Source: an uncultured Verrucomicrobia subdivision 3 bacterium
GTDB lineage: Bacteria > Verrucomicrobiota > Verrucomicrobiia > Limisphaerales > UBA11358
Assembly: GCA_903872345.1 (NCBI GenBank)
Contig: CAIQKM010000040.1
Location: 1-64,000, forward strand
Direction of reading: 5' to 3'
DNA: 64,000 nt
The stretch's first letter is position 1, and every line of letters starts with the position of its first letter. Made by a program: the position numbers and the translations under genes. Under the pieces are notes generated by a model that saw only the letters and a program-made list of their open reading frames with translations, did no database searches and had not been told where the DNA came from. Positions 8,929 to 34,484 of this stretch are shown one piece after another.

Positions 8929-8983
8929 GTTTTTTTGACAGTTTGATAGTTCCACCACCGTCACCCGGCCACCGCCATCGTCA

Positions 8984-14079: not shown

Positions 14080-15674
14080 AGGTTGGCCTCCATGGCGGTC
14101 ATTGCCGCCAAATGATCCATGCCCGGCGTCTTGCGCGTTTCCCGCCAGCCCCAGTAGGTCCATTCCGATTTCAAATTCGTCTCCGGCGGAAACAGCCAGC
14201 TCGCCAGGTATCCCAGCACCAGCACGATCACGTGGGCAATCACGCCGATCATCACGTCCGGCCAGGTAAAGTTGAAACCAATATCCAGCATCTTATATTT
14301 GCCGCCGGTTAGCGTGGCCCACACGGTGAAAATCAGGGCGGCGGTGATGCCAATCCACAAGCCCTGGCGATTCGCCCGACGGCTGAAAAACGCCAGCAGA
14401 AACATCCCGGCCAGCCCGGCGGAAACAATCGAGGTCGCCGCATAATACAACACCAGCGCGCTGTCCCCCTTGTGGGCGATAAAAGCGCCGATGCCCACGG
14501 CCAGCGCCCCGCAAACCGCCACAATCAGCTTGCCGGCAAACAGGCGCTGACGGTCGGTCGCCGCCGGCCGCAGCTTGCGGTAATAATCTTCCACGCCCAC
14601 GGCCGCCAGACAGTTCAGGTCCGAGGACATCGTGGACATCGCCGCCGAAAACAGTGCCGCCATGAAAATCCCGGCCAGCCCGGCGGGAATCTTCGTCGTC
14701 AGAAAAAAGGGAAAAACCTGATCGTTCAAAACCTTGCCACTCGCGTCATACAAATGGGCCGGCAGCGCCTCGCCCGATAACTGGTAATACGCCCACAGCA
14801 ACGTGCCGATCAGCATGAACGCCGTCCACGCCGGCACGCAGAGCAACGCCCCCATCGCCACGCCCTTCAGCGCTTGGCGGTCGCTTTTCGCCACCAGATA
14901 ACGCTGCACCAGCGTCTGATCCGCCGCGTACTTTTGCAAATACCAGAAGGAACCGTACAGCAGCATCACCCAGAAGCCGCCGTCCTTTGAAAAGTCGAAA
15001 TCAAAACTGCCGAGGCTCATTTTATGATGCTCCGCCGCCAGGTGAAACGCCGCGCCCGGACCGCCAGGCATGATGGAAAACAGCACGCCAATGACCACGG
15101 CCACGCCGATCAGTTTGACGATTCCCTGCAACACTTCCGTCCAGATCACCGCTTCCAGCCCGCCCAGCAGGGTGTAGAGCACGGTCAACACACCCACGCC
15201 CACGATCACCTGGTATTTGTCCCAGCCGGTCATCCCGCAAATCGCCGACGTGATGGTAAACAGCACAAAACCCATCTTGGAAAAATGGCCGGCGGTGAAC
15301 GCCAGGGCGCTGTACGCCCGCGCGCCGTAGCCAAACCGCTTTTCAAAATATTCGTACACGCTCATGCCCACGGCATGGCGGAAGAAGGCAATCAGGGTCG
15401 TGCCCGCCAGCACCAGCACGCCCACCGCCATGAAGCCCGGCACCAGCAGGTTCCAGTTGCCTTTGAACGCCGCCCCGGGATATGCCACAAACGTGATGCT
15501 GCTGATGATGGTGGCAAAAATGGACATGCCCATTGCCCAAGAAGGAATCGAACGCCGCGCCACAAAATAGGCCTCGGTTGTGGTCTGCCGCCGGGCAAAA
15601 TGCAGGCCAATGCCCGCCACCGCGACAAAATAGGCCGCAATCACCACCAGATCCAATGTGCGCAGGGAGTTCAT
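14076..15674 (-). CDS. Sodium:solute symporter (SSS family)
   Basis: The 532-residue integral membrane protein has about 13-14 hydrophobic helices and opens with MNSLRTLDLVVIAAYFVAV. The segment ARRSIPSWAMGMSIFATIIS and later GLAGIFMAALFSAAMSTMSSDLN are hallmarks of SSS transporters, the second forming part of the sodium site. It is the likely importer for the substrate of the operon. It starts one base after the BNR gene stop and overlaps the dehydrogenase start, so the three genes are translationally coupled. Sialic acids, glucose-like sugars and sugar acids are all known SSS substrates. Confidence 0.93.
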   Translation of the reverse strand: MNSLRTLDLVVIAAYFVAVAGIGLHFARRQTTTEAYFVARRSIPSWAMGMSIFATIISSITFVAYPGAAFKGNWNLLVPGFMAVGVLVLAGTTLIAFFRHAVGMSVYEYFEKRFGYGARAYSALAFTAGHFSKMGFVLFTITSAICGMTGWDKYQVIVGVGVLTVLYTLLGGLEAVIWTEVLQGIVKLIGVAVVIGVLFSIMPGGPGAAFHLAAEHHKMSLGSFDFDFSKDGGFWVMLLYGSFWYLQKYAADQTLVQRYLVAKSDRQALKGVAMGALLCVPAWTAFMLIGTLLWAYYQLSGEALPAHLYDASGKVLNDQVFPFFLTTKIPAGLAGIFMAALFSAAMSTMSSDLNCLAAVGVEDYYRKLRPAATDRQRLFAGKLIVAVCGALAVGIGAFIAHKGDSALVLYYAATSIVSAGLAGMFLLAFFSRRANRQGLWIGITAALIFTVWATLTGGKYKMLDIGFNFTWPDVMIGVIAHVIVLVLGYLASWLFPPETNLKSEWTYWGWRETRKTPGMDHLAAMTAMEANL

Positions 15675-15675
15675 C

Positions 15676-17475
15676 TTATTGGCTTAAACTCCTTTCACGC
15701 CCCGTAGTTTCGCCGGTGAATTCGCCCTGCTTGAAAAGATATTCGTGCGTCAGCCGGCCGGTTTCGTCCCATTGCCGCACCGGGCCGTCCGCCACCAGCC
15801 CGAAAAAGCTCCGCTTCAAATCGCGCGCCTGCGGGTGCGTGTTCCAATTGGACTCCAGCTTCCGCCGGCCATCCGGCCAGAATTGAACCCACACGCTCCG
15901 GCCATCCGCCAAATCATGCACCCAGGTCCAGCGCTTCGAGCCGTCCGGCTGCCAAAAAGTTTCTTCGCCCGACTTGCGACCATTGATATAAACCGCCTCA
16001 TGCTGCTTGGCACCGCTGTCGTAATAATCCGTTTCCCGGCCTTGCAGCAGATAACGGCCGCCGGGACAGATTCGCGCGCTCCATTCGGAACGGAGGGTTC
16101 CGTTGGCATAGGATTCCGAAAAACTTTTCACCACGCCGCCGGCGGTCTCGGGCGCAATATCGCCCGCGTCCGAAAGAATCCACGCTTCGTTCAGCTCATA
16201 ATGCAAACACGGCTGGGTCTCCGTGGTCAGCACGTGAATGACGCCATTCGGCGCCTGCCGTGCGGTTACGTAACCGACCGTGCCATAATGGCGGTGCTCG
16301 TGATTCGGCAACTGCACCGGCAGCGGCTTGACGCGCCAGGAAACACCCTGATTGGTCGAAATGGCCACAAAGCAATCGTTGCCATATTTCCAACCCGTCG
16401 GCGGCGCAATTTCCTTCTTGTGCATGTAGGCGTCGCTGACAAAAAAGAGGTCCCCATTCGCCAACCGGATCAGCGATGGCCGCTGCGCGCTGCCCAGCGG
16501 CGGAAAGGCTCCGGCCACCGGCTTGCTCCAGGTGGCGCCCCAGTCCGTCGAAACGGATTGCGGCGTCCAGCCATCCACCGAACTGTTCTTGCCGCCAATC
16601 GCCAGAAGCGGACCTTGATCGTTCAACGGCACCACCGCGCTGTGCCGCCCGCCCGTGCGTCCGCCCATGTCGTGCCAGTGAATGCCGTTGTCCTGACTGC
16701 GCCACAGCAGGCTGGTGGACTTGTCCCCGTCCATCGCAAAGTAAATGGACTGGTCCGGACCCCGGAAAGCGCTCGTGATCGGCTGTTCCGTCACCTTGGC
16801 CATGGGCTGATCCAGTTGTGGCAGCGACAGCGTCCAGCTCGCTCCGTTATCGGTCGAAACCGCCATCTTAAACGGCACCCAGTCGGAAAGCCCGCGTCCG
16901 CCGCCAAAAAACCAAATTTTGCCGCCGTCCCGCCACAGCAGGCCGGACTGGTCGTTGTAGTTCTCCAGCTTGAAAAACAGTTCCGGCACATCCCAGTCTT
17001 CCGCCCCATAGCGCAGGCGGGCCTGGATGAACGAGGTTTCCGGATCACTCTCGCTCTTGCCCGGCGGGGTGCTGAAATAGACCGCCAGCGCATCGCCGTT
17101 CGGCAGAATTTCAAACCCCGGCGAATGATTGTGCGTAAAAACTTTCGGATCCAGTCCGGCAAACGCGGCCACCTCATTGGTCGCATTCTCCGGCGGAATC
17201 GGCAGCGCAAAACGGACGGTAAAGTAAGGCTTGGCCGGATCCGGTCCGTACACCGCAGCGGCAACCCCTTGCTTGACAGCCGACTGGCCATAGGGCAGCG
17301 CCGCCGCGCGCTCCAGCGTCAGCTCCAGCCGGTTGGATTCGCCATTGGCGGAACTCTGCGTCCCCAAAGTGAACCCGGCCGCCGCCACCGGCAATTGCTT
17401 GGTTTCTCCCGCCCCGGCCGCCAGCGCCAAAGCCAGCGCCCCGGCCGCCACCGTAATCAGGGGCAGCCGCGTCAT
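15676..17475 (-). CDS. Exported BNR/Asp-box (sialidase-fold) protein with MORN-like tail
   Basis: The 599-residue protein starts at ATG 17475 (MTRLPLITVAAG), giving a clean signal peptide ending near AAGAG. A longer frame to 17544 is less likely. Four Asp-box repeats (STDNGASW, SQDNGIHW, STDWGATW, STNQGVSW) show a six-bladed propeller of the exo-alpha-sialidase superfamily. After about residue 455 the sequence changes to repeats such as YYDSGAKQHEAVYINGRKSG and FWPDGRRKLESNW, which match the YwqK/MORN_2 type. The family mixes hydrolases and lectin-like proteins, so sialidase activity is not assured. It leads the sugar-acid operon and probably releases or binds the substrate outside the inner membrane. 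Confidence 0.8.
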   Translation of the reverse strand: MTRLPLITVAAGALALALAAGAGETKQLPVAAAGFTLGTQSSANGESNRLELTLERAAALPYGQSAVKQGVAAAVYGPDPAKPYFTVRFALPIPPENATNEVAAFAGLDPKVFTHNHSPGFEILPNGDALAVYFSTPPGKSESDPETSFIQARLRYGAEDWDVPELFFKLENYNDQSGLLWRDGGKIWFFGGGRGLSDWVPFKMAVSTDNGASWTLSLPQLDQPMAKVTEQPITSAFRGPDQSIYFAMDGDKSTSLLWRSQDNGIHWHDMGGRTGGRHSAVVPLNDQGPLLAIGGKNSSVDGWTPQSVSTDWGATWSKPVAGAFPPLGSAQRPSLIRLANGDLFFVSDAYMHKKEIAPPTGWKYGNDCFVAISTNQGVSWRVKPLPVQLPNHEHRHYGTVGYVTARQAPNGVIHVLTTETQPCLHYELNEAWILSDAGDIAPETAGGVVKSFSESYANGTLRSEWSARICPGGRYLLQGRETDYYDSGAKQHEAVYINGRKSGEETFWQPDGSKRWTWVHDLADGRSVWVQFWPDGRRKLESNWNTHPQARDLKRSFFGLVADGPVRQWDETGRLTHEYLFKQGEFTGETTGRERSLSQ

Positions 17476-17668
17476 ATCAGCCTTTGCATGGTTAAAGCGC
17501 ATGAGCGGTTGGTTGGGACATCTATTCTTAACCCATTTGGGCATTTCCGGTCATATTTATATCGCCAAACTATTTGATAATAATGCCAAACAGGCGTTTC
17601 TTCAAAAGAAACCGCTTGGCTTCCGGGGCGCGGGCGGGAATTCTCTAGGAACAACCAATTCCCTGAAC
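17476..17668. promoter_or_regulatory. Divergent control region with a palindrome
   Basis: This 193-bp spacer separates the minus-strand BNR operon from the plus-strand isomerase operon and must carry both promoters. It contains the palindrome GTTTCTTCAAAAGAAAC at 17596-17612 (7-bp arms), a plausible operator for a LacI- or GntR-type repressor. I see no clear -35/-10 pair. Confidence 0.4.
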
Positions 17669-19102
17669 ATGAACTCGATCAAAAGCAAACCGCCCGTGCT
17701 CGGCGTCATCTACGGCAACCGCGACTTTTTCCCCGACCAGCTCGTCACCGAGGCCCGCCGGGACATCGCCGCTCTCTTCGCCAAACTTGGCATCAAAGCC
17801 ATTCAACTCGCCGAAACCGACTCCAAGCTCGGCGGGGTCGAGACCCACGCCGACGCCCGCAAATGCGCCGAGCTCTTCCGCCGGCACGCCGGTGAAATCG
17901 ACGGCGTCCTCGTCTGCCTGCCAAATTTCGGCGATGAGAAAGGCGTGGCCGACACACTCAAACTGTCCAAGCTGAATGTCCCCGTGCTCATCCAGGGCTA
18001 CCCCGACGATCTGGCTCAGCTCTCCCCCGCCCGCCGGCGCGACGCCTATTGCGGCAAGATTTCCGTGTGCAACAATCTGGTGCAGGCCGGCATCAAGTTT
18101 TCCCTCACCGGCAAGCACGTGTCGCACCCGACGTCCGCCAGCTTCGTCCACGATCTTCAGCAGTTCCTCGGCGTCTGCCGCGTGGTCAACGGCGTACGCG
18201 GCGTGCGCCTCGGTGCCGTCGGCGCGCGGCCCGGCGCGTTTAACACCGTGCGTTACTCGGAAAAACTGCTGGAGCGCCACGGCATCAGCGTCACCACCGT
18301 GGATCTCTCCGAATTTTTGGGCAAGGCCGACAAACTCGATGCCGAGGCCGCCGCCGTTAAAGCCAAGCTGGCGGAAATTACCGGCTACGCGCCCGCGCCC
18401 GGCGTGCCGCCCGCCAAGCTCGTCCAGATGGCCAAGCTCGGGGTGATCCTTACCGACTGGATGGATGCCAACGCCATTGACGCCACCGCCATCCAATGCT
18501 GGACCTCCGTGCAGCAGAATTTCGGCTGCAACGTCTGCACGCTCATGAGCATGATGAGCGACAAGTTCCTGCCCAGCGCCTGCGAAGTGGATGTGACCGG
18601 CGTGCTCACCATGTACGCCATGCAACTGGCCGGCAGCACGCCCGCCGCGCTCGTGGACTGGAATAACAATTACGCGGACGACGACGACAAGTGCGTGCTC
18701 TTCCACTGCGGCAACTGGGCCAAGAGTTTCCTGCCCGACATCAAGATTTCCAACGCCCCCATCCTCGGCAGCATTCTGGGCGTGGAAAACACCTATGGTG
18801 CGCTCGATGGCCGCACCCCGGGCGGACCGCTCACCTTCGGCCGGCTCACCACCGCCGATGCCGAGGGCAAAATTCGCGCGTACGTGGGCGAAGGCGAACT
18901 GACCAATGATCCGCTCAACACCTTCGGCAACCGCGCCGTCGCCAAAATTCCGCGCCTCCAAAACCTCATGCATCACGTCTGCCGCGAAGGCTTTGAACAT
19001 CACGTGGTCATGACCCAGTCCAAATCCGCCGGCATTTTGACCGAAGCGTTCCGCAATTATTTCGGCTGGGATGTCCACCATCACAACGCACCGCAGGATT
19101 GA
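17669..19102 (+). CDS. L-fucose/L-arabinose isomerase-fold sugar isomerase
   Basis: The 477-residue protein starts at ATG 17669 (MNSIKSKPPVLGVIYGNRDF). The C-terminal half matches the L-fucose isomerase family: LPSACEVDVTGVLTMYAM with the metal-binding acidic residues, ALVDWNNNY, VLFHCGNW and a final GFEHHVVM with a conserved histidine. Such enzymes interconvert aldoses and ketoses. Three overlapping or close genes follow: a two-part transketolase and an FGGY kinase. That order (isomerase, kinase, split transketolase) mirrors the D-apiose to D-apulose-4-phosphate route, although the characterised apiose isomerase is of the xylose-isomerase-like type. I suggest a branched or short ketose product. 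Fucose itself is less likely, since no fuculose-phosphate aldolase is present. Confidence 0.82.
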   Translation: MNSIKSKPPVLGVIYGNRDFFPDQLVTEARRDIAALFAKLGIKAIQLAETDSKLGGVETHADARKCAELFRRHAGEIDGVLVCLPNFGDEKGVADTLKLSKLNVPVLIQGYPDDLAQLSPARRRDAYCGKISVCNNLVQAGIKFSLTGKHVSHPTSASFVHDLQQFLGVCRVVNGVRGVRLGAVGARPGAFNTVRYSEKLLERHGISVTTVDLSEFLGKADKLDAEAAAVKAKLAEITGYAPAPGVPPAKLVQMAKLGVILTDWMDANAIDATAIQCWTSVQQNFGCNVCTLMSMMSDKFLPSACEVDVTGVLTMYAMQLAGSTPAALVDWNNNYADDDDKCVLFHCGNWAKSFLPDIKISNAPILGSILGVENTYGALDGRTPGGPLTFGRLTTADAEGKIRAYVGEGELTNDPLNTFGNRAVAKIPRLQNLMHHVCREGFEHHVVMTQSKSAGILTEAFRNYFGWDVHHHNAPQD

Positions 19103-19104
19103 TC

Positions 19105-19953
19105 ATGGGCCAACCAATGTTATCCGACCGCGAGCTCGCGCTGAAATCCGTCCAGTTGCGACGGCAGACGCTGCTGGCAATTTCACACGCCGGCGCCGGT
19201 CATACCGGCGGCGGTCTGTCCTGCCTCGACATTCTGAACGTGCTGTACAACCGCATTCTGAATGTGTCGCCCGCCACGGCTCAAAGCCCGGACCGCGACC
19301 GCTATGTCCAAAGCAAGGGACATGCCGTCGAGGCGCTTTACACCGTGCTGGCCGATCGCGGGTTTTTCCCGGCGGCGGACCTGGATACCATTTGCCATTA
19401 TCAGTCCCATTACGTCGGTCATCCCACGCGCCATATTCCCGGCATTGAAATGAACACCGGCGCGCTCGGCCACGGCCTGCCCATCTGCACCGGCATGGCC
19501 ATTGCCGCCAAGCTCGACGCCAAACCGTACCGGGTGTTTACCCTGCTCGGTGACGGCGAGCTCGCCGAGGGTTCCAACTGGGAGGCCGCCATGGCCGCCG
19601 CCCATTATCACCTCGATAATCTGACCGCCATCATTGACCACAACACCCTGCAAATCAGCGGCCGCACCCGCGACGTGTGCAGCAACGAGCCGCTCGATGA
19701 AAAATTCCGCGCCTTCGGTTGGGCCGTCAAAGTCATCAACGGCCATGATTTTGCCGCGCTGACCGATGCTTTGTCCCACCCCGCCGAGCCGGGCAAACCA
19801 ACGTGCGTCATCGCCAACACGGTGAAAGGCAAAGGCGTGAGCTTTATGGAAGACGTGGCCAAATGGCATCATGGCGTGCCCAGTGAAACCGAATTGCAAC
19901 AGGCCCTGGCGGAACTTGCCGCCGCCGAAGCCAAATTGAAGGAGGTCGCATGA
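19105..19953 (+). CDS. Transketolase N-terminal subunit (AptA-like)
   Basis: This 282-residue protein carries only the thiamine-diphosphate pyrophosphate-binding half of a transketolase. HAGAGHTGGGLSCLDIL, RDRYVQSKGHAVEALY, TGALGHGLPICTGMA and LLGDGELAEGSNWEA followed by IDHNTLQISG (the GDG..N metal site) are all present. I chose ATG 19105, although a TTG at 19099 and an ATG at 19117 are also in frame. The next gene starts inside its stop codon (ATGA), so the two halves are co-translated. Split transketolases beside an FGGY kinase are known as apulose-4-phosphate transketolase (AptAB), which yields dihydroxyacetone phosphate. Other split transketolases exist, so the assignment is by context. 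Confidence 0.85.
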   Translation: MGQPMLSDRELALKSVQLRRQTLLAISHAGAGHTGGGLSCLDILNVLYNRILNVSPATAQSPDRDRYVQSKGHAVEALYTVLADRGFFPAADLDTICHYQSHYVGHPTRHIPGIEMNTGALGHGLPICTGMAIAAKLDAKPYRVFTLLGDGELAEGSNWEAAMAAAHYHLDNLTAIIDHNTLQISGRTRDVCSNEPLDEKFRAFGWAVKVINGHDFAALTDALSHPAEPGKPTCVIANTVKGKGVSFMEDVAKWHHGVPSETELQQALAELAAAEAKLKEVA

Positions 19954-20954
19954 GCGCGCCCGCCCCGTCCATGTACACGCCCGCCGCCAAAGCCATGGCG
20001 GAAAAGCTCAGCCTGAAAATGGGCCGCGCCAACCTGGATGAATTCGCCGCCACGCTGATGGAACTGGCGAAGGCCAATCCCAATATCGTCGCCGTCACGA
20101 GTGATTCGCGCGGCTCCGGCAAGCTCGGCCCCTTCGGTCAAGCTTTGCCCAAGCAGCTCGTCGAAGTCGGCATTGCCGAACAGAATCTCGTCGGCATCAC
20201 CGCCGGCCTCGCGGCTTGCGGCAAGAAATCCTTCGGCGTCTCGCCCTCCTGCTTTCTCACGGCGCGTTCGCTGGAACAGATCAAGAACGACATCTGCTAC
20301 TCGGATGTCCCCGCCACCTTGATCGGCATCAGTTCCGGCGTCAGCTATGGTGCGTTGGGCACCACCCATCATTCGCTGCACGACCTCGCGGTTCTCCGGG
20401 CCATTCACAATCTCATCGTCATTGTCCCGGCGGATAATTTTGAAACCCGCGAAGCCATCCGCTTCGCCGCCCAATCGCCGAAGCCGGTTTTTGTCCGGTT
20501 TGGCAAGGCGCCCATGTACGACCTGCATGAGCCGGGCACCCGGTTCACGCCCGATCAGGCCATTCAGATCGGCAACGGCAATGACTTCGCTTTCCTCGCC
20601 ACCGGCGAAACGGTGGTCCACGCCGTGCTCGCCGCCGGCCAGCTTGAATCCCAGGGCTTGAAAGGTCGTGTGCTTTCCGTGCCCACCATCAAGCCGCTCG
20701 ACACCGCCGCCATTCTGAAAGCCGGACACGAATGCCGCGCGCTCATCACGGTGGAAGAACACAGCGTCCACGGCGGTCTCGGCGAAGCCTGCGCCGCCGT
20801 GCTGATGCAGGCCGGCATCCGTGTACCCTTCCGCATCATTGGCATGCCGGATGAAGACACCATCACCGGCGCGCAAGCCGACATCTTCCGTCACTATGGC
20901 ATTTCGATGGAAGGGTTAAGCCAAAGCATGGCCACATTACTCGCGGCCAAGTAA
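19950..20954 (+). CDS. Transketolase C-terminal subunit (AptB-like)
   Basis: The 334-residue partner contains the pyrimidine-binding and C-terminal transketolase domains. VEVGIAEQNLVGITAGLA holds the catalytic glutamate that activates thiamine diphosphate. SVSYGALGTTHHSLHDLAV and ITVEEHSVHGGLGEA are family motifs. Each subunit alone lacks half of the active site, so a heterotetramer is expected. It overlaps the N-subunit by 4 bp and is followed 16 bp later by the kinase gene. The same folds occur in DXP synthase and pyruvate dehydrogenase E1, but the split arrangement and kinase partner favour a sugar-phosphate transketolase. Confidence 0.86.
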   Translation: MSAPAPSMYTPAAKAMAEKLSLKMGRANLDEFAATLMELAKANPNIVAVTSDSRGSGKLGPFGQALPKQLVEVGIAEQNLVGITAGLAACGKKSFGVSPSCFLTARSLEQIKNDICYSDVPATLIGISSGVSYGALGTTHHSLHDLAVLRAIHNLIVIVPADNFETREAIRFAAQSPKPVFVRFGKAPMYDLHEPGTRFTPDQAIQIGNGNDFAFLATGETVVHAVLAAGQLESQGLKGRVLSVPTIKPLDTAAILKAGHECRALITVEEHSVHGGLGEACAAVLMQAGIRVPFRIIGMPDEDTITGAQADIFRHYGISMEGLSQSMATLLAAK

Positions 20955-20970
20955 CCATTCTCCCGCTCGC

Positions 20971-22449
20971 GTGAAATATCTCCTCGCCATTGACCAAAGC
21001 ACTTCCGCCACCAAGGCGGTGCTCTTCGACGTCACGGGCAACATCGTGGACAAAGCCGCCTGCGATCATCGCCAGATTTATCCCCAGCCCGGCTGGGTGG
21101 AACACGATGCCGAGGAAATCTGGCAAAATGTCCTCGCCGTCATCCGGGAAGTTGCCGAACGCAATCGCTCCATCCTGGCCGATCTCACCGGCCTGAGCAT
21201 CACCAACCAGCGCGAGACCGTGCTGATATTCGACCGCGCCACCGGCCGCCCCCTGCATCACGCCCTGGTCTGGCAATGCCGGCGCGGCGATGCGCTCTGC
21301 CAGCAGCTTCGGTCCCAGGGCCACGCCGAATCCGTTCAGCGCCGGACCGGCCTGAAAATTGACACCTATTTCTCCGCCTCCAAACTTGCCTGGCTGGTCG
21401 CGGAAAAACCCGACCTCGCGGCCCGCCTGCGCGCCGGCACCGCCGTGATCGGTACGATTGATGCCTATCTCATCCACCGGCTGACACACGGGGCCGTCTT
21501 TGCCACCGATTACACCAACGCCAGCCGCACCCTGCTGTTTGACATCGGGTCGCTCAAATGGGACGCCGGTCTGTGTGAATTGTTTAACGTTCCGCCCGCC
21601 GCGCTGCCCGCAGTCCGCGAAAGCGCCGCCACCTATGGCAGCACTGATGTGGACGGCATTCTGCCCGCACCCGTCCCTATCGCCGGTGTGATGGGCGATT
21701 CCCAAGCCTCTCTCTTTGCGCAACGCTGCTTTCAACCCGGTACCGCCAAAGCCACCTTTGGCACCGGCACCAGCGTGTTGCTCAACATCGGGGACACATG
21801 CAAAACCTCCGCCACCGGTGCCGTCACCGCCCTGGCCTGGGTCTGGCAGGGCCGCCCTACTTACGCTTTCGAAGGCCTCATTAATTTTTCCGCCGCCTCC
21901 CTTTCCTGGCTCAAAAACCAGCTCGGCCTGATCCACGACAACGCCGAGATTGAACCCCTCGCCCGCGCCGTGACCGACAACGGCGGCGTCTATCTGGTGC
22001 CCGCCTTTTCCGGCCTGAGCGCCCCCTACTGGTCGCCTGATGCCCGCGCCGCCATCATTGGCCTCACCGCTTTTTCCCAGAAGGAACACATCGTCCGCGC
22101 CGCGCAGGAGGCCATCGCTTACCAGATTCGCGATGTGCTCGACATGATGCGCGCCGATGCCGGCGTGACCTTGCAAAATCTCCACGCCGATGGCGGCCCC
22201 ACCCGGAACAGTTTCCTGATGCAGTTCACAGCCGACATCACCGGCACCGACCTGTGCGTCTCCGAAGTGGCCGAATCCTCCGCCTGGGGTGCCGCCATGA
22301 TGGGACTGGCCGGCCTCGGCCTTTGCCCCTCATTGGAACAGCTCGCCGCCCTGCCCCGCGAACAGAAAAATTATCACCCGCAAATGCCCGCCAGCCAGGT
22401 GCAGGCGTATTACGCCGGCTGGCAGCAGGCCGTCAAACGCGTCCTCTAA
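20971..22449 (+). CDS. FGGY-family carbohydrate kinase (apulose/glycerol-kinase-like)
   Basis: This 492-residue kinase starts at GTG 20971 (read as [20 protein letters not shown]). It has the phosphate-1 motif [18 protein letters not shown], the [16 protein letters not shown] and GTGTSVLLN segments, and the C-terminal [15 protein letters not shown] adenosine-binding region. Overall it is closest to glycerol kinases, a group that includes kinases for other short polyols and ketoses. Following the isomerase and split transketolase, it most likely phosphorylates the ketose made by the isomerase to give the transketolase donor, as AplK does with apulose. It is 38 bp upstream of the substrate-binding protein gene, so uptake and catabolism are probably one operon. 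Confidence 0.88.
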
Positions 22450-22487
22450 TTTCCCGAATCCAGCGCAACCAACCACTCCTACTCACC

Positions 22488-23441
22488 ATGAAAACTCCCC
22501 TGTTCAAACTCCTGCTCGCCGCCAGCCTCGCCGTGCTGGCCAGCCTGTTCCTTCCGACCGCCAGCGCCCAAACCGCCGCGAAGGACAAGATCGCCGTGGT
22601 TGTCTCCACCTTGAACAATCCCTGGTTCGTCGTGCTCGGCGAAACCGCCAAGGCCCGCGCCGTGGAACTCGGCTACGACGCCACCATTTTTGATTCACAG
22701 AACGACACCGCCAAGGAAGCCGCCAATTTCGAGAACATCATCGCCGGCGGGTACAAGGCCATCCTGTTCAACCCCACCGACGCCAACGGCTCCATCGCCA
22801 GCGTGCTCAAGGCCAAGGCGGCGGGCATCCCCGTGTTTTGCATTGATCGCGAAATTAACGCCACCAACGCCGCCACCTCCCAGATGCTCTCGGACAGCTA
22901 TTCCGGCTGCGTGAAACTCGGTCAATACTTTGTGAAGACCGTCGGCAAGGAAGGCGAATACGCCGAACTGCTTGGCATCGTCGGCGACAATAATACGTGG
23001 AACCGTTCCAAGGGTTTTCACAGTGTCGTGGACCGCTACCCAGGCCTGAAAATGGTCGCCCAGCAGAGCGGTGAATTCGACCGCGCCAAAGGCCTCGAAG
23101 TCATGGAATCCATCCTCCAGGCGCATCCGAATATCAAGGCCGTTTTCTGCGGCAACGATGCCATGGCCATGGGTGCCTATCAGGCCCTCGTCACCGCCAA
23201 CAAGGCTGATGTCGTCAAGGTCTTCGGCTTCGACGGCGCGGACGACGTGGTAAAACTCATCGCCGAAGGCAAGATCGCCGCCACCGGCATGCAATTCCCC
23301 AAGCTGATGGCCCGTCAGGCCGCCGAATACGCCGACAGCTACGTGAAAGGCAAACGCGATTTTGCCCAGAAAATTCCCGTCCCCGTTGAACTGGTCACGC
23401 AACAGAACGTGAGCAAGTACGGCGATTACGGCAAGAAATAA
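22488..23441 (+). CDS. Periplasmic sugar-binding protein of a CUT2 ABC transporter (RbsB-like)
   Basis: The 317-residue protein starts at ATG 22488 with a signal peptide ([20 protein letters not shown]). The mature part is a Peripla_BP_4 ribose-binding fold: [64 protein letters not shown] and [12 protein letters not shown]. Aromatic and acidic ligand residues of the ribose/xylose type can be seen (NPWF, DRE, GND, FDG). It should capture the monosaccharide processed by the genes upstream. The transporter is completed by the permease at 24096 but lacks an ATPase gene here. Confidence 0.92.
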
Positions 23442-23446
23442 GCCCC

Positions 23447-24088
23447 ATGCGCGCGCTCCGCTGGATCAGCTTCATGGTTGTGCTCGCCGGCCTGGCCTGG
23501 CGGTTTCCGCTCTTCCATGTCGTGCCCCTGCAACAGGCCGTGGCGGAGAAAAAGGCGGCCACGTTTGATCCCACCCAGTTCGCCGGCACCTTTTGGACCA
23601 ACCGCCTCCTGGCCTCACTGGACAAAGCCGTCAGCGCCACGGTGCTATTGCCCGCCATCCAAAGCGATCCCGCCGCCGCCAAAAAACAATTCGCCCGCAG
23701 CGTGGGCATGGGTGAAAGTTATTTCTATTTTGTCGCGGGGATAGGGCGTGTGGTGTCCGTCTCCGACGATGAAATCCTCCTCGCCGTGACCGCCACCGGC
23801 ACCAATGCCGACATCTCCCTCCCCGCCGGCCCGGTCTTCGGCAACGCCCTGCGCGACAGCACCAGCCTCCTGAATGTGAGCGACTACCCCAATTCGCAGG
23901 ATTTCAACGACATCTCCGCCGCGCTGAATCATCTGGTCGAAACCACCGTGCTGCCGACCTTGCGCGTCCAGGCCAAAGTCGGCGCGCAACTGTCCTTCGC
24001 CGGCTGCGCCGAAGTAGCCGATGAATCCAGCGACCTGAAACCCTTGCACGTCGTCCCGGTGATGACCCGCCTATTGCCCAACCTGTAA
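23447..24088 (+). CDS. DUF2291-family lipoprotein-like/anchored protein of sugar ABC operons
   Basis: This 213-residue protein lies 5 bp after the binding-protein gene and 7 bp before the permease. An N-terminal hydrophobic segment (WISFMVVLAGLAWRFPLFHVV) looks like a signal anchor rather than a lipobox. FDPTQFAGTFW, the region around SVGMGESYFYFVAG and the C-terminal VPVMTRLLPNL fit DUF2291, a family found beside RbsB/RbsC genes and of unknown mechanism. It probably works with the transporter at the outer face of the inner membrane. Confidence 0.75.
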   Translation: MRALRWISFMVVLAGLAWRFPLFHVVPLQQAVAEKKAATFDPTQFAGTFWTNRLLASLDKAVSATVLLPAIQSDPAAAKKQFARSVGMGESYFYFVAGIGRVVSVSDDEILLAVTATGTNADISLPAGPVFGNALRDSTSLLNVSDYPNSQDFNDISAALNHLVETTVLPTLRVQAKVGAQLSFAGCAEVADESSDLKPLHVVPVMTRLLPNL

Positions 24089-24095
24089 CGGCATC

Positions 24096-25061
24096 ATGTT
24101 CAAATCCGACCATTTCAAACGCTTCCAGTCGTTCATCGCGCTGGCGGTGATGATCATCGCCCTGAGCCTGCTGTCGGACAAATTTCTCACCGTCGCCAAC
24201 GGCCGGAACATCCTGCTCCAAATCGCCGTCAACCTGTGCCTCTCCATCGGGATGACCCTCGTCATCCTCACCGGCGGCATTGACCTCTCCGTCGGGGCCA
24301 TCCTCGGTTTCGCCGGCGCCTTTGCCGCCGGCCTGTTGAAAAACGGTCTCACCCTGAAATGCTTTGGCGTGGTGCTGCAATTCACACCGTTCGGTGCCAT
24401 GGTCGCCGGCCTGCTCGCGGGCCTGGGGTTGGGGTTAATCAATGGCGTCACCATTACGCGCTTCCGGCTGCCGCCCTTCGTCGCCACGCTCGGCATGTTG
24501 AGCATCGCACGCGGCTTCACCATGTTGTGGACCGGCGGCTTTCCCATCACCGACCTCGGCCCGCAATTCGGGTTTATTGGCGCCGGCTTCTGGCTGGGCG
24601 TTCCCATGGCGGTTTGGATTTCCGCCCTCCTCGTGGCCCTGTTCGTCGTCATTTCGCGCCGCACCATTCTGGGCCGTTACATCTATGCGGTGGGTGGCAG
24701 CGAAAAGGCCGCCGCGTTTTCGGGATTAAACGTCAACCGCATCAAGCTCTGGGTTTATGCGCTCGGTGGCGGGCTCGCCGCCATCGCCGGCCTGATCGTC
24801 AGCGCCCGGCTCGATGCCGCCGACCCCAAGGCCGGCCTCGGTTACGAATTGGATTCCATCGCCGCCGTCGTCATTGGCGGCACGTCCCTCAGCGGCGGGC
24901 GCGGCTCCATCCTCGGCACCGTGCTGGGCTGCCTCATCATCGGCGTGCTGAACAACGGGCTTTTCCTCCTCGATGTCTCCCCCTTCTGGCAACAGGTTGT
25001 CAAAGGCGTCGTCATCCTCATCGCCGTAGCCGCCGACAAAATGGGCGCACCCCGCGAATGA
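24096..25061 (+). CDS. Sugar ABC transporter permease (RbsC-like)
   Basis: The 321-residue permease has about 8-10 transmembrane helices and the BPD_transp_2 features LSIGMTLVILTGGIDLSVGA and GRYIYAVGGSEKAAAFSGLN, the latter being the coupling (EAA-like) loop that contacts an ATPase. LDSIAAVVIGGTSLSGGRG near the C-terminus is the usual family motif. Length is normal. Its stop codon directly abuts the stop of the convergent BASS gene, with no spacer. No RbsA-type ATPase is encoded in this operon or elsewhere in the window, so the subunit must come from another locus. Confidence 0.92.
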   Translation: MFKSDHFKRFQSFIALAVMIIALSLLSDKFLTVANGRNILLQIAVNLCLSIGMTLVILTGGIDLSVGAILGFAGAFAAGLLKNGLTLKCFGVVLQFTPFGAMVAGLLAGLGLGLINGVTITRFRLPPFVATLGMLSIARGFTMLWTGGFPITDLGPQFGFIGAGFWLGVPMAVWISALLVALFVVISRRTILGRYIYAVGGSEKAAAFSGLNVNRIKLWVYALGGGLAAIAGLIVSARLDAADPKAGLGYELDSIAAVVIGGTSLSGGRGSILGTVLGCLIIGVLNNGLFLLDVSPFWQQVVKGVVILIAVAADKMGAPRE

Positions 25062-26333
25062 TTATTCAGGTTTGACGGAATCGACCGGCCGCTTGCGCCA
25101 ATAATTCGCCAGGATCGAACCGCCGACATTCATCCACACAATAAAGATCGCCGGGGCCAGCCCCACCGTGGCGAGCTTGCCCATGGCGCTGGCCAGGCCC
25201 GACGCCATTCCGCCGTTTTGCAGACCCACTTCAAACGCCACCGACCGTGCGGAATTTTTGTCCAGCCCGACGCCCCGGCTCAGAAAATACCCCAAGCAGA
25301 AACCCGCCATGTTGTGCAGTCCGGACGCGATGACCAGGCATACCCCCACCTTGAACAAATTGTCCCGCCCCGCCGCCGTTGTCATCGCCGTCACGTAGAG
25401 AATGCCGACAATCGCCAGCGTGGGCATGATCCGATCCAGCCACGCCAGCCGGAGCGTCAGCGCGTGATAGCTCGTGCCTATCACCACCGCACTCAGCAAA
25501 AATCCACCCAATCCGATGACCGACAAAGCCCCATCACCCACCAGACCTAACAGCCAGCCCCAACCGCCCAGCGCCAAAAATCCCAGCCACCCCAAAGCCA
25601 GAGCCGTCACCAACAGCACCACTCGCCAGCCGCGGCCCGAAGCCCGTTTCAGATAATCGTGCAACAAAGCCGCGCCAATCGGCACAATCATGATCTTCAC
25701 GATCTCGATCATCATTTTGACAAAGCTCACCTCCACCATCGTGCCCGCCAGCAGCTTCATCCACAGCGGCGTCAGGAAGGGTGCCAGCATGGTCGTGACG
25801 GCGGTAACCGTTACCGACAGTGCCAAATTCGACCGCGCAATGTACGCCATCACATTCGACGCCAGCCCGCTGGAACACGAGCCAATCAAAATCACCCCCG
25901 CGCCAATTTCCGGCGGAAACTTGAAAATCTTGGTCAGCGCAAACCCCACCAGCGGCATCACGGAAAAATGACAGACAATGCCCACCAACACCCCGCGCGG
26001 ATTTTTCGCCACCCCCGCAAAATCATGCAGACTCATCTGCGTGCCCATCCCGAACATCACCATCTGAATCGCCACCAACATCACCCATTTGTTGCGCATG
26101 TCAAAACCGTCCACATGCAGAAAATGAGTCGGATAAATCAGCGCCGCCGTCACCACCGCAATCACCCACGCCGTAAACTGATACGTCCGCAGCGCCGGCA
26201 CAAACCGCAACCCCACCGCGAGCCCCAAAGTCAGCACCACCAAGGCCGCTTGCCAGCCCCCCAAACAACTCACGCCCAGCGCCACCAAAACGGCGATAAT
26301 CACTCCCAAGATATATTTCCCCAGCGGATACAT
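25062..26333 (-). CDS. Bile acid:sodium symporter (BASS) family transporter
   Basis: The 423-residue membrane protein has roughly ten or more helices. LIGSCSSGLASNVMAYIARS corresponds to the sodium-site crossing (GxCPGGxxSN in the family), and FEVGLQNGGMASGLAS is the conserved E-x-G-x-QN motif, so a sodium-coupled mechanism is likely. It is about 100 residues longer than typical BASS proteins, partly through an added N-terminal pair of helices and a central insertion. As the last gene downstream of a RuBisCO-like protein and a DUF1537 kinase, it probably imports an organic acid such as a branched sugar acid. Confidence 0.85.
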   Translation of the reverse strand: MYPLGKYILGVIIAVLVALGVSCLGGWQAALVVLTLGLAVGLRFVPALRTYQFTAWVIAVVTAALIYPTHFLHVDGFDMRNKWVMLVAIQMVMFGMGTQMSLHDFAGVAKNPRGVLVGIVCHFSVMPLVGFALTKIFKFPPEIGAGVILIGSCSSGLASNVMAYIARSNLALSVTVTAVTTMLAPFLTPLWMKLLAGTMVEVSFVKMMIEIVKIMIVPIGAALLHDYLKRASGRGWRVVLLVTALALGWLGFLALGGWGWLLGLVGDGALSVIGLGGFLLSAVVIGTSYHALTLRLAWLDRIMPTLAIVGILYVTAMTTAAGRDNLFKVGVCLVIASGLHNMAGFCLGYFLSRGVGLDKNSARSVAFEVGLQNGGMASGLASAMGKLATVGLAPAIFIVWMNVGGSILANYWRKRPVDSVKPE

Positions 26334-26370
26334 TCAGTTCGTTGATCTAATTGGAAAGAACCCGTTTCCC

Positions 26371-26413
26371 TTATCCGTGTTCATCAGTGTCCATCCGTGG
26401 TTGAATATTCTTC
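26371..26413. repeat. Dispersed 'CCGTG' word repeat, copy 1
   Basis: A stretch built from ATCCGTGT-like words ending CCATCCGTGGTTGAA recurs at 62717-62758 with few differences. It occupies the spacer between the BASS gene and the racemase-like gene. Its function is unknown. Confidence 0.55.
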
Positions 26414-26420
26414 GCTCCCT

Positions 26421-27083
26421 TTACAGAACGGTCGCCAGATATTCCACCGCAATGCGCGGACTCGCCAGAATCGGCACCCGCCGGTCTTCCGCCGCCAGCG
26501 TGTCCACCACCCGCGCCATCGAAGCCTGCGCGAGCACGACCACGTCAACCTCCTGCGAAAGCGCTTTCAAGGCCGCCGCCACCTTGGCGTCATGCGTCGC
26601 CGCGTCACCGCTCATCAGCGCCTCAAACGCACCTTCACAGAGCCGCGCCGTCAGCTCAATGTGCTTGCCCGCCAGCTCCGCCCGCCGGGAAATCAAATCC
26701 GCCGTCGGCTCCAGCGTGGTTCGCAGCGTGGCGACCACGCCGATCTTCGCGCCCGTCGCCACCGCCCGATCCGCCATCGGCTGATCCACGCGCAGCACCG
26801 GCACGCCGATCAGTTTCGCCCCCGCTTCCACGGCCGGCCCGATCGAGGAACAGGTAACCATGATGTAATCCGCCCCCGCCAGTTCGGCGGATTCCAGATA
26901 CGCCGCCACCCGCCGCGCAATCACCGCCGTCAGGCTGCCGCTGCTGATGATGCCTTTCACCAGGCTGTCGTCGGCAATGTTAAACACATTCACGCCGGGC
27001 AACAGTTCCTTGCACAACGCGCCAAACACCGGCACCAGCGTGGCCGAGGTATGCACCAGACCGAGGGTTTTCTGTTTCATCAT
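26421..27083 (-). CDS. Asp/Glu racemase-superfamily protein with a single catalytic cysteine
   Basis: The 220-residue protein starts at ATG 27083 (a second ATG follows at 27080), overlapping the upstream kinase stop. The pattern KTLGLVHTSATLVPVFGAL, YIMVTCSSIGPAVEAG and VLRVDQPMADRAV fits the aspartate/glutamate/hydantoin racemase fold. The first catalytic cysteine is in VTCSS. Where racemases carry the second (the GCT motif), this protein has VVLAQASMAR, so a two-base racemase mechanism is improbable. A one-cysteine member could be a decarboxylase, isomerase or hydrolase. It is coupled to a DUF1537 kinase and a RuBisCO-like protein and likely acts in the same sugar-acid route. Confidence 0.78.
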   Translation of the reverse strand: MMKQKTLGLVHTSATLVPVFGALCKELLPGVNVFNIADDSLVKGIISSGSLTAVIARRVAAYLESAELAGADYIMVTCSSIGPAVEAGAKLIGVPVLRVDQPMADRAVATGAKIGVVATLRTTLEPTADLISRRAELAGKHIELTARLCEGAFEALMSGDAATHDAKVAAALKALSQEVDVVVLAQASMARVVDTLAAEDRRVPILASPRIAVEYLATVL

Positions 27084-28441
27084 TTCAACTTTCCGCTTTT
27101 TAAGATTCCAAAATAATTCTTCGGGCCCACCTGGCCGCCCTTGAAATTCACTTCCAGCCCGTCCGCCGGCGAACCCGGCGCAAACGCCCGGCACAACGGC
27201 GCGCCCGGCACCAGCGGCGCCGCCATCTCCAGCGCTTTGATGCCCAAGGCGCGCGCCGCAAAACTCGACGTATCCCCGCCCGCAATGCACACGCGCCGGA
27301 CTTTCGCCTGCAACAAAACTTTTCGCAGCACCAAACCCAAGGCCGTGCCCAAAACACTCGCTGTGGCCTGCTGCAACACTTCCGCCACCTGCCGGTCCGA
27401 GCCCTTCCGCGTCGTGTGTACGATCACACTGCGACCGCGCTCCAGCAACGCCACCGTGGCCCGCACCGCCCGTTGCATTTCCGCCTGGGTTCTCTTGGCA
27501 TTCGCCAGCGCCCCGGCACGCAACGCCACTTCGGCAAAACCGTGCTCCATGGCCCAGTCCATCTGCTGCTGCGTCACCGGCGAGCAACTGCCCGAACCCA
27601 CCAGCAACTGTTTCACCGGCCGCACCTTGATCAAATGCGCCCGGCTCGCGCGCAATTCGCCCGCCGCTTTCCAATGCGCCGTCAGCGCCATCTCCACGCC
27701 GGAGGAACCTACGGAAAACAACGGCTTCCGCGCGCTGCCCCGTTCATCCAGCAGGCCGCCGATGCGCGCCAGGTGCGTCACCTCCAGCACGTCAAACAGC
27801 ACCGCGTCCGGCTGCTCCGCCAGCACGTCGCGCAACGCCGCCCGCGCCTCGGCGACTGGCAAGGCCACTTGCAAAATATCGAACAACCCCACGGTCAGCT
27901 TCGTCTGCTGCTCCAGATGCCGCCGCAAATCCGCTTCCAACATGGGCGTAATCGGATGCCGGCTGATGGCGGGATGCCGGTCCAACCGGTGAATCGCCCC
28001 CTGGCTGCCAATGCCCATGCGCGCAAATAGATTGCCAAATAGACAGTAACGTCCCAGCGCCGGCGCACCCACCAGCAGCGGAATGAACGGCGCCTTGAAC
28101 AGCCTTTGCCCCAACTCCATCACGCAGCCGATGCTGCCGATCGCCGGCGAGGAATCAAACGTGGAGCACACCTTGTAGTGAACCTGCGGCGCACCCAGGT
28201 CTTTCAAATGTTTCAGCGCCGGACGCAGCACCGCCCGCATTTTGTCCGGCGGCAGCGACCGCGTCACCCCCGCCACGCCCACCGCCTCGAGTTGGGGAAA
28301 CTGTTTTAACTGCGCCCGGGTCGGCGGCGCAATGAACAGCATCGTGCGCACCCCGGCGCGCGCGAGCTGTTCCAGCGCGTCCGTGGACCCGGTGAAATCA
28401 TCCGCGTAAAACGCGAGCCGTAATGAATTGCGACCTTTCAT
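27080..28441 (-). CDS. DUF1537 acid-sugar kinase (OiaK-like context)
   Basis: This 453-residue kinase is longer than the DUF1537 protein encoded at 9855-11012 and only distantly related to it. It has LAFYADDFTGSTDALEQLAR at the N-terminus, LVGSGSCSPVTQQQMDWA in the middle and RVCIAGGDTSSFAARALG for nucleotide binding. It overlaps the RuBisCO-like gene upstream (ATGA, 4 bp) and the racemase-like gene downstream. In the known D-apionate pathway, a DUF1537 kinase (OiaK) phosphorylates 3-oxo-isoapionate before a RuBisCO-like decarboxylase acts. The same gene pair here supports an equivalent step on that or a similar branched 3-oxo acid. Confidence 0.87.
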   Translation of the reverse strand: MKGRNSLRLAFYADDFTGSTDALEQLARAGVRTMLFIAPPTRAQLKQFPQLEAVGVAGVTRSLPPDKMRAVLRPALKHLKDLGAPQVHYKVCSTFDSSPAIGSIGCVMELGQRLFKAPFIPLLVGAPALGRYCLFGNLFARMGIGSQGAIHRLDRHPAISRHPITPMLEADLRRHLEQQTKLTVGLFDILQVALPVAEARAALRDVLAEQPDAVLFDVLEVTHLARIGGLLDERGSARKPLFSVGSSGVEMALTAHWKAAGELRASRAHLIKVRPVKQLLVGSGSCSPVTQQQMDWAMEHGFAEVALRAGALANAKRTQAEMQRAVRATVALLERGRSVIVHTTRKGSDRQVAEVLQQATASVLGTALGLVLRKVLLQAKVRRVCIAGGDTSSFAARALGIKALEMAAPLVPGAPLCRAFAPGSPADGLEVNFKGGQVGPKNYFGILKSGKLK

Positions 28442-29688
28442 CCGCCATGCTTGCCAAATTTATCGAGCGAGGGTTTGAGCTCGGGATACTTTGCCGACGC
28501 CGACTCCATGGTCAGCCCCTCCACCGCCGCCGCCCACCATTGTTGCAGCGACCGCACGCCCGCCGCCGCCCCGTGCGGATGCGCCATGATGCCGCCGCCG
28601 GCCATGTACAGCAAGTCCACCGTCCGCGTGCGACGATACGTCTCCGGCGCCTGCCCGCCCCACTGACCTGAGGACACCACCGGGAGCACCGAAAATCCGC
28701 CCAGCAACGGCTTTTGACACGCCGCAATGGACCGCACCACCGAGTCATCGCTCTCCCAAAACTTGTTCGCAATGCCGTTCACATGAATCTGATCCACGCC
28801 CGCCAGCCGCCAGATTTTCTGGTACGCCGGAAATTCAATCCCCAGCCACGGATGCCGGTTCAACGCGCCCCAGCCGTTGCGATGACCATGAATCGCCAGC
28901 GCGCCCGCATCGCAAATTTTCTTCACCCCCGCCAGCCCCACGCTGTTCAGCGACACCATCGCGCCCGTGCCCCCGCTGCGCACCACCTTTTCATAATGCC
29001 GCTGCATCGCGTCCAGTTCATCGCTGATATTAAACGCGTACATCACCTTTTTGCCCGTGCGGTCGGCGTGCTCATTCAACACGCGCATGATGGCATCCAC
29101 CCGCGCATCAAAGGGCGAATGCGGCGGGTCCGCCATCAGTTCGTCATCCTTGATAAAATCAATCCCCGCGCCCGCCAGCGTGCGAACCATCTCCGCCGTC
29201 TGCTCCGGCGTCAGACCAATGCTCGGCTTGATGATCGTCCCAATCAGCGGCCGACCCGTCACACCCGTCAATTGGCGGCAACCCGCCACCCCGAATTTCG
29301 GTCCGCGAAAATGTTCGGCAAACGACGGCGGAAATTCCACATCCATCAGCTTCAGCCCGGAGAACTGGGTCAGCTCATAGAGATTGCCTTGCAGCGTCGA
29401 AACCAGCGTGGGCAGGTTCCAGCCCATGTTCTCCACCGGCCAGGACACCACGATCTCCGCGCGCTGAAAGCTTCCGCTCGCCGACCGGCAACCCGGCAGA
29501 CTCGGAGTCGTGACCGTTTCCAGCAGCGTGATTTTTTCCACCCGCGCCGCAAACCGCTGCTTCAACTCCTCCGTCTCGCCCGGCACCGCCACGAAGGTGC
29601 CCGATGACTGCTCGCCCGCCAGCGAGGCCGCCGCCTTCGCCACCGCCAGCGGTGTCTCAATCAGGTAGGTTGCAACAATTCGTTCCAT
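28438..29688 (-). CDS. RuBisCO-like protein (form IV; OiaX/OiaT-like candidate)
   Basis: The 416-residue protein starts at ATG 29688 (MERIVATYLIETPLAVAKAA). It keeps the core RuBisCO features: Lys154 in GTIIKPSIGL, the carbamylated-lysine cluster at 180-183 (FIKDDE, Lys-Asp-Asp-Glu), GHRNGWGALNRHPWLG and a loop-6-like NKFWE lysine. Carbon fixation is unlikely, because there is no small subunit or phosphoribulokinase and the neighbours are a DUF1537 kinase and a transporter. RuBisCO-like proteins beside DUF1537 kinases act as 3-oxo-isoapionate-4-phosphate decarboxylase or transcarboxylase. Isomerase-type members (methionine salvage) are an alternative, but no mtn genes are here. It starts 8 bp after the FGE-like gene ends. 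Confidence 0.88.
   Translation of the reverse strand: MERIVATYLIETPLAVAKAAASLAGEQSSGTFVAVPGETEELKQRFAARVEKITLLETVTTPSLPGCRSASGSFQRAEIVVSWPVENMGWNLPTLVSTLQGNLYELTQFSGLKLMDVEFPPSFAEHFRGPKFGVAGCRQLTGVTGRPLIGTIIKPSIGLTPEQTAEMVRTLAGAGIDFIKDDELMADPPHSPFDARVDAIMRVLNEHADRTGKKVMYAFNISDELDAMQRHYEKVVRSGGTGAMVSLNSVGLAGVKKICDAGALAIHGHRNGWGALNRHPWLGIEFPAYQKIWRLAGVDQIHVNGIANKFWESDDSVVRSIAACQKPLLGGFSVLPVVSSGQWGGQAPETYRRTRTVDLLYMAGGGIMAHPHGAAAGVRSLQQWWAAAVEGLTMESASAKYPELKPSLDKFGKHGG

Positions 29689-30602: not shown

Positions 30603-34484
<3,882 letters not shown>

Follow-up and report, generated by a model that had tools for sequence, protein, structure and literature searches.

What can a RuBisCO-like protein (RLP) be doing in an operon with a DUF1537 kinase, a one-cysteine protein of the Asp/Glu racemase fold (RAC) and a BASS transporter? 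These four genes lie in this order on the minus strand, within positions 25062-29688, of the 64,000-nucleotide stretch of DNA from an uncultured Verrucomicrobia bacterium that was analyzed here (the window). The genome to which it belongs, G000, is 94.6% complete. A sequence-only reading of the window had linked the operon to D-apionate breakdown and had suggested that it imports and degrades a branched sugar acid, possibly by a new variant of that pathway. We infer that such an acid is indeed taken up and degraded. The most likely answer is that the cassette, which is widespread among degraders of rhamnogalacturonan-II (RG-II), represents a variant of the RLP-DUF1537 sugar-acid pathways for aceric acid; its reactions, substrate and products are all predicted from sequence. 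That it is the catabolic unit for the aceric acid of RG-II seems to us somewhat probable.

The order of the four genes was confirmed by coordinates, overlaps and Pfam assignments (Table 1; the RLP was scanned as a 408-aa piece, residues 9-416). The RLP and kinase genes share 4 nt (ATGA), the RAC start ATGATG spans the kinase stop with an overlap of 1 or 4 nt, and 87 nt separate RAC from the BASS gene. The best NCBIfam model for the RLP is OiaX (NF042437), at 511 bits under a cut-off of 700, compared with 761 bits for OiaX of Paracoccus, to which the window RLP is 52% identical; its best PDB sequence match is 3nwr (407 bits). The kinase matched OiaK best (NF042436), with 439 bits and again under a cut-off of 700. 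This cut-off separates poorly, since the kinase adjoining Paracoccus OiaX likewise reaches only 444 bits. For the transporter, the top model was the PanS ketopantoate/pantoate transporter (NF047939), at 192.9 bits and under its cut-off of 400.

Lys154, Lys180-Asp-Asp-Glu183 and the loop-6 lysine, Lys309, all picked out in the sequence-only reading, are invariant in 72/72 RLPs of the main clade and in 27/27 comparison RLPs, and His267/269 are also conserved. Methionine-salvage enolases and other isomerase-type RLPs belong to the same superfamily, but such a role is hardly conceivable here: the RLP scored 140.1 bits with the MtnW model (TIGR03332, cut-off 513.6), the loop-6 and carbamate lysines are both present, and the partner is a sugar-acid kinase. 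The MtnW and OiaX scores rule out an isomerase-type RLP, and with it the grouping with enolases that had been named as fatal to the first proposal.

The four genes recur far beyond chance, since they keep the same order and strand in 47 of the 80 named RLP loci and are all present in 17 of the 22 close-relative loci. The named loci are the best 80 of at least 497 that were confirmed by RLP alignment in a GTDB genome scan. All four genes were present in 51 of them, rearranged in four (L082, L121, L124 and L133), and a further six contain kinase and RAC but no BASS gene in the stretch. Close relatives were taken from a set of 97 genomes (G000 and relatives, including 48 of the same genus), 23 of which contain the RLP. 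Their 22 extended loci, G000 apart, comprise the 17 with all four genes, one without BASS, three with RLP and kinase only, and one cut by a contig end. Carriers belong to the Verrucomicrobiota, Bacteroidota, Balneolota and Planctomycetota, with two Chloroflexota and one Acidobacteriota, and on a plasmid of Rufibacter tibetensis the same gene order is embedded among genes for hydrolases of pectin and plant walls. The recurrence with the RLP across loci rules out RAC and BASS as accidental neighbors.

The oiaX locus of Paracoccus (L034) and many of its relatives carry a PF16896 protein (phosphogluconate-dehydrogenase-C-terminal), which we take to be ApnO, the D-apionate oxidoisomerase. Among the 80 named loci RAC was found in 57 and ApnO in 13, and never both. 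A profile search gave no PF16896 match in G000 or its 48 same-genus relatives, a result that speaks against a plain D-apionate pathway; matches were obtained in 11 of the 97 genomes, including three RLP carriers without RAC (G075, G077 and G087). Because RAC and ApnO never occur together and the genome has no match to the ApnO family, the cassette seems unlike the published D-apionate pathway, and RAC takes the slot of ApnO. The proposed link to that pathway thus holds as kinship with OiaK, OiaX and OiaT, but not as membership, the two model scores being below 700 bits and PF16896 unmatched. The racemase-like gene and BASS do fall outside the known pathway, but they are not extras, since RAC fills the place of ApnO in a separate RLP clade.

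A separate clade is also apparent from an RLP tree of 117 rows (113 different), calculated by a quick method with SH-aLRT support. The RAC-type RLPs form one clade of 76 rows with support of 100, consisting of 72 rows with RAC, four with neither gene and none with ApnO. The window RLP lies inside this clade, apart from the branch of OiaX-type rows (L034, L209 and L210; support 97). The RLP of Microvirga (L195) lies outside the RAC clade, with a path to the window RLP of 1.96 compared with 2.73 for Paracoccus OiaX; among its nearest relatives are Ancylobacter and Xanthobacteraceae proteins, which are not in the tree. The clade and the mutual exclusion of RAC and ApnO bear out the earlier suggestion of a new variant. 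Fifteen RLP columns split the RAC clade from ApnO types (e.g., Tyr232, Gln300 and Ser97), but they say little on specificity, since no more than about two of them are found in each of the independent RAC carriers L137 and L140. Some same-genus RLPs (L016-L019 and L050-L053) have an insertion of at least about 23 residues just before VLPVVSSGQ, past residue ~329.

These results make it quite improbable that the cassette encodes an ordinary D-apionate pathway, in which plain OiaT or OiaX and OiaK would work with an unrelated oxidoisomerase encoded elsewhere, while RAC and BASS served another purpose. Its active-site residues are the same as in ApnO-type RLPs, as that explanation would predict, and the JGI name OiaT is attached to 1 of the 120 listed nearest relatives of the window RLP and to 9 of 120 for the Microvirga RLP. 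On the other hand, the window-type RLPs form their own clade, RAC stays with the RLP in the four rearranged loci and in RLP lineages outside the main clade, and PF16896 was matched in no RAC-cassette genome of the 97-genome set.

RAC has the Asp/Glu racemase fold but only one of the two catalytic cysteines. In an alignment of 80 sequences (counted after removal of pieces that contained a stop or were shorter than 171 aa), Cys77 is invariant, and the position that we assume, from the racemase family, to be that of the second catalytic cysteine is occupied by Gln-Ala-Ser, once with Gly for Ala and never with Cys. Neither Cys148 (66/80) nor Cys23 (53/80) is at that position. The top 50 entries in the VIA-align list are racemase-family entries only; the absence of arylmalonate decarboxylase from these 50 rows carries no weight. 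RAC appears to have been joined with differing RLP lineages, because RACs of carriers outside the main RLP clade group with the cassette RACs. These are L137 and L140 (Chloroflexota), L144, where RAC is on the opposite strand, and the Croceibacterium plasmid L032, in which RAC is apart from an RLP that is the nearest relative of that of L144. All four RACs fall within the cassette RAC clade in a tree rooted on two rhizobial homologues; a very long branch leads to the RAC of L140, and support reaches only 84-92 for several inner branches of that part. The Rhizobium plasmids L035 and L036 encode proteins related to RAC (identities of 50 and 46%) that have its single Cys; their genes lie next to those of FAD oxidoreductases, aldehyde dehydrogenases and ABC transporters, with no RLP in these stretches, and they may represent a different use of the RAC family.

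The hydrolases encoded near the cassettes match RG-II enzymes and point to RG-II and its aceric acid. A Pfam scan of 30 neighbor proteins, mostly representatives of recurring neighbor clusters and including three window genes, identified GH127, GH106, GH78, GH95, GH141 with an L-rhamnose mutarotase domain, GH2, GH88, DUF5703/GH95-like and SASA esterase proteins, and no match to the apiosidase family PF13204. The GH127 representative matched PDB entry 5mqo with 772 bits (next GH127, 360), the GH106 protein matched 5mqm with 1217 bits, and the GH141 protein matched 5mqp ('Glycoside hydrolase BT_1002') with 625 bits. We take 5mqo to be BT1003 and 5mqm to be BT0986. Passages of two papers give aceric acid hydrolase as the function of BT1003 (PMC10850190, PMC5698469), and a passage of a third lists BT1002 and BT1001 as RG-II enzymes (PMC7939467). 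A full-length BT1003-like GH127 gene was found in 25 loci. In 17 of these it is directly upstream of the RLP gene on the same strand, with 5-154 nt between the aligned ends; they are 16 RAC loci and L076, in which neither kinase nor RAC was seen. A GH127 copy just upstream is cut by the contig end in L092, L094 and L101, and a different GH127-domain gene lies 30 nt upstream of the RLP gene in L144 and likewise directly before it in L032. When loci of at least 12 kb were counted (94; 17 shorter ones were dropped), GH127 was present in 22/61 RAC loci, 0/20 ApnO loci and 1/13 others.

The association was also seen for whole genomes. In the 97-genome set, a BT1003-like gene (at least 530 bits, next score 391, a cut-off chosen after the scores were known) was present in 20/20 genomes with a main-clade RLP versus 5/77 others. 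RAC was seen in 19 of these 20 carriers, and in G008 the contig ends inside the RLP gene. In a second set, covering 50 of the 80 named loci (most short contigs of metagenome-assembled genomes and loci with neither gene were omitted), the gene was called at 590 bits or more in 38/39 RAC genomes versus 2/11 ApnO genomes. L137 and L140 have both RAC and a BT1003-like GH127 despite RLPs outside the main clade. GH141 (at least 150 bits) was found in 14/20 carriers versus 3/77 others, and G000 itself gave no more than a weak match. Whereas the pectin surroundings in Rufibacter had initially led us to favor apiose, the adjacency of GH127 shifted our preference to aceric acid. In G018, G040, G041 and G096 a BT1003-like GH127 occurs and no RLP was found; these are either incomplete assemblies or organisms that release the sugar and do not use it.

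Several observations weigh against aceric acid. The code 5MQO was not found in the paper texts searched for it, and the PDB names this entry 'Non-reducing end beta-L-arabinofuranosidase'. GH127 is within the locus in only the 22/61 RAC loci mentioned, and the copy of G000 lies on another contig, outside the window (C180:32925-34955, best match 5mqo with 671 bits), roughly 3 kb away from a gene resembling apiosidases. A BT1003-like GH127 is present in two ApnO-type genomes (L123 and L127) and in five genomes of the 97-genome set in which no RAC cassette was found, and it is absent from the RAC genome of L144. Tree contrasts at the locus and genome level number 3-4 that are independent; GH127 agrees in about two and opposes in none, numbers too small for significance. 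Moreover, an apiosidase (GH140-like) homologue, called at 500 bits or more, occurs in 19/20 carriers versus 8/77 others. Because it tracks the cassette almost equally, co-occurrence alone indicates RG-II degradation in general and not aceric acid. Finally, we know of no member of the racemase fold that is a sugar aldose-ketose isomerase.

The apiosidase count also favors an apiose-derived acid as the substrate, an alternative we regard as unlikely. A different dehydrogenase would then make 2-oxo-apionate, BASS would import it, and RAC would shift the hydroxymethyl group to give 3-oxo-isoapionate for the kinase and RLP. This would explain why RAC occupies the slot of ApnO, as it would perform only the isomerase half of that reaction. 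The nearest model for BASS, although under its cut-off, transports ketopantoate, an analogue of 2-oxo-apionate, and an apulose-type operon lies next door. However, that operon seems to provide a redox-neutral isomerase/kinase/transketolase route for apiose, the conserved cassette contains no dehydrogenase (the commonest neighbor, a Gfo/Idh/MocA cluster, is found in 9/84 loci), and the in-operon GH127 gene is left unexplained. A cysteine racemase fold would also be an odd home for a metal-dependent ketol shift. We therefore prefer aceric acid over apiose on the basis of operon adjacency, the acid-type transporter, the separate apiose operon and the chemistry.

Aceric acid is 3-C-carboxy-5-deoxy-L-xylose, CHO-CHOH-C(OH)(COOH)-CHOH-CH3, a branched acid of RG-II. 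In the pathway that we propose, it would be freed by the GH127 hydrolase and imported by BASS, through cation symport as judged from the transporter family. Since aceric acid is an aldose acid, an isomerase is required and not an oxidoisomerase, and RAC should be this isomerase because it is the sole extra enzyme and stands in the place of ApnO. Its Cys77 would shift a proton between C2 and C1, converting the aldose to the 2-ketose CH2OH-CO-C(OH)(COOH)-CH(OH)CH3; movement of a proton between adjacent carbons by a single cysteine fits a cis-enediol mechanism. The ketose would suit an OiaK-like kinase and an OiaX/OiaT-like RLP because it is 3-oxo-isoapionate, CH2OH-CO-C(OH)(COOH)-CH2OH, with one CH2OH changed to CH(OH)CH3. 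The DUF1537 protein, as the proposed ketose kinase, would phosphorylate the primary hydroxyl, the same one as in the OiaK-like substrate, and the RLP is proposed to act on the resulting 1-phosphate, splitting the beta-keto acid with a carbamylated lysine and a metal. No aceric acid catabolic pathway was among the matches listed in literature searches.

For the RLP step, two outcomes can be envisaged. Decarboxylation, as with OiaX, would give 5-deoxypentulose 1-phosphate, which an aldolase would cleave to dihydroxyacetone phosphate (DHAP) and acetaldehyde, whereas transcarboxylation/hydrolysis, as with OiaT, would give 3-phosphoglycerate and lactate. The second outcome is slightly preferred because the cassette contains no aldolase, the tree path is nearer to the Microvirga type, and glycolytic genes occur at plasmid loci. 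The genome has two class II aldolases, neither on the contig of the window. Genes for enolase, pyruvate kinase or phosphoenolpyruvate carboxylase were found in 4 of 11 inspected plasmid loci that are neither OiaX nor RAC type (L190, L191, L211 and L212, on Cupriavidus, Azospirillum, Bradyrhizobium and Haloterrigena plasmids), and the other seven have none in the stretch. The gene content of these four loci suggests 3-phosphoglycerate as the RLP product, also in haloarchaea.

Table 1. Predicted features of the window, with positions, strands and the similarities on which the assignments are based.
Feature	Position	Strand	Details
RuBisCO-like protein (RLP)	28438..29688	-	416 aa, ATG start; PF00016 204.6 bits (cut-off 30.1), PF02788 30 bits
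DUF1537 (four-carbon acid sugar) kinase	27080..28441	-	453 aa; PF07005 and PF17042
RAC, one-cysteine Asp/Glu-racemase-fold protein	26421..27080 or 27083	-	219/220 aa; PF01177 75 bits
BASS (SBF) transporter	25062..26333	-	423 aa; PF01758 113.8 bits (cut-off 24.3)
GH78-type alpha-L-rhamnosidase	3347..6073	+	PF17389 317 bits
GH2 enzyme	6076..8964	-	PF02836 116 bits
Second DUF1537 kinase, PdxA family protein, DapA/NanA-like aldolase, iron alcohol dehydrogenase, SSF-type transporter	9855..15674	-	one operon
BNR-repeat (sialidase-like) protein	15676..17544	-	between the putative Dha and apiose operons
Fucose_iso_C isomerase, first gene of the apulose-type operon	17597..19102	+	PF02952; putative apiose isomerase
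Split transketolase	19099..19953 and 19950..20954	+	51% and 38% identity to AptA/AptB of the E. coli SE15 D-apiose cluster
FGGY kinase (AplK-like)	20971..22449	+	36% identity to E. coli SE15 AplK; top NCBIfam model GlpK glycerol kinase
Ribose-type ABC importer: binding protein, DUF2291, permease	22488..25061	+	PF13407, PF10054, PF02653; no ATPase gene
GH2 beta-galactosidase-like enzyme, divergent from the cassette	30657..34484	+	PDB 6sd0 693 bits; similarity from ~31200, open reading frame start mechanical

The surroundings of the cassette agree with a setting in RG-II breakdown. Homologues of AplK, AptA, AptB and the ABC importer stand together at 17597-25061, and neutral apiose seems to be served by a separate apulose-type operon beside the cassette. 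The binding protein and permease of the importer are 35% and 41% identical to their counterparts in the E. coli SE15 apiose cluster, in which DUF2291 was not matched at 1e-5, and no ATPase gene lies between DUF2291 and the permease. G028 shows the same tight DUF2291-permease spacing; G014 and Sphingobacterium loci have a gene of ~500 aa there, presumably the ATPase. In L110, a PF02952 homologue adjoins a transketolase pair, and elements of this operon are also found next to RAC-type and some ApnO-type cassettes. A homologue of the GH2 enzyme divergent from the cassette occurs in 18/61 RAC loci and 0/20 ApnO loci.

The operon at 9855-15674, homologues of which lie close to the cassette in G012, G028 and G033, would fit breakdown of 3-deoxy-lyxo-heptulosarate (Dha). 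The aldolase would yield pyruvate and a C4 aldehyde acid, and reduction to a tetronate, phosphorylation and PdxA would lead to DHAP; the nearest NCBIfam model of the second DUF1537 kinase is D-threonate kinase (123 bits, under the cut-off). Release of Dha or Kdo from RG-II might be the task of the BNR-repeat protein. With the operons predicted for apiose, aceric acid and Dha, the window has the appearance of an island for rare RG-II sugars. This arrangement bears on the explanation that the cassette serves another RG-II or pectin sugar acid, such as Dha, Kdo or a linear 3-oxo-tetronate, with RAC epimerizing the carbon beside the keto group before phosphorylation. We consider this improbable: for Dha and Kdo, which are 2-keto-3-deoxy acids, an aldolase route is expected and a separate operon of that kind is present at 9855-15674, and the OiaX and OiaK scores of the RLP and kinase greatly exceed those with any tetronate model.

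The full form of the aceric acid proposal is a complete three-enzyme route, with RAC as isomerase, the DUF1537 kinase and an RLP giving 3-phosphoglycerate and lactate, with its own BASS transporter and, in many Bacteroidota, an in-operon hydrolase. We put this forward tentatively. RG-II, the most complex of the plant pectins, is present in all plants, and enzymes that depolymerize it are known. If true, the route would add a new RLP reaction and a new reaction class for the racemase fold, supply the missing fate of one of the rarest RG-II sugars, and assign a role to a large environmental RLP group (at least 8000 candidates in the search). RLP chemistry would then have been reused by exchanging the upstream enzyme, and the one-cysteine racemase fold would have a sugar-isomerase function. 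Even with a wrong substrate, the exclusion of RAC and ApnO marks a distinct branch of the RLP-DUF1537 pathways.

D-Apionate is reportedly broken down by ApnO, OiaK and either OiaX or OiaT (Carter et al. in Nat Chem Biol, 2018). The cassette resembles that system in its adjacent and overlapping RLP and DUF1537 kinase genes, in the RLP active-site residues, and in the expected class of beta-keto sugar acid phosphates. It differs in having RAC and no ApnO-type gene, BASS instead of ABC or TRAP transporters, and an RLP from its own clade set among RG-II hydrolases. RLPs from A. radiobacter K84 and Xanthobacter are described, in a passage of one paper, as catalyzing decarboxylation and transcarboxylation/hydrolysis of 3-oxo-isoapionate 4-phosphate (PMC6302742). 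A route by D-apiose isomerase, apulose kinase and AptAB, with the E. coli SE15 cluster, is outlined in part of another (PMC13001218). Most of the latter gene set occurs in the divergent operon beside the cassette, although an isomerase of the Fucose_iso_C kind is missing from the SE15 cluster. Unlike the cassette, the D-apiose route involves neither an RLP nor an acid and handles a neutral sugar. RAC is 14% identical to the E. coli L-Asp/Glu-specific racemase (PDB 5ell) and differs from it in the absence of the second Cys, the lack of an amino-acid context and its proposed role as a sugar isomerase. The work of Ndeh et al. (2017) on RG-II in Bacteroides thetaiotaomicron is said to cover depolymerization; homologues of the GH127, GH106 and GH141 enzymes of that system adjoin the cassettes, and the RLP cassette would add a proposed intracellular pathway.

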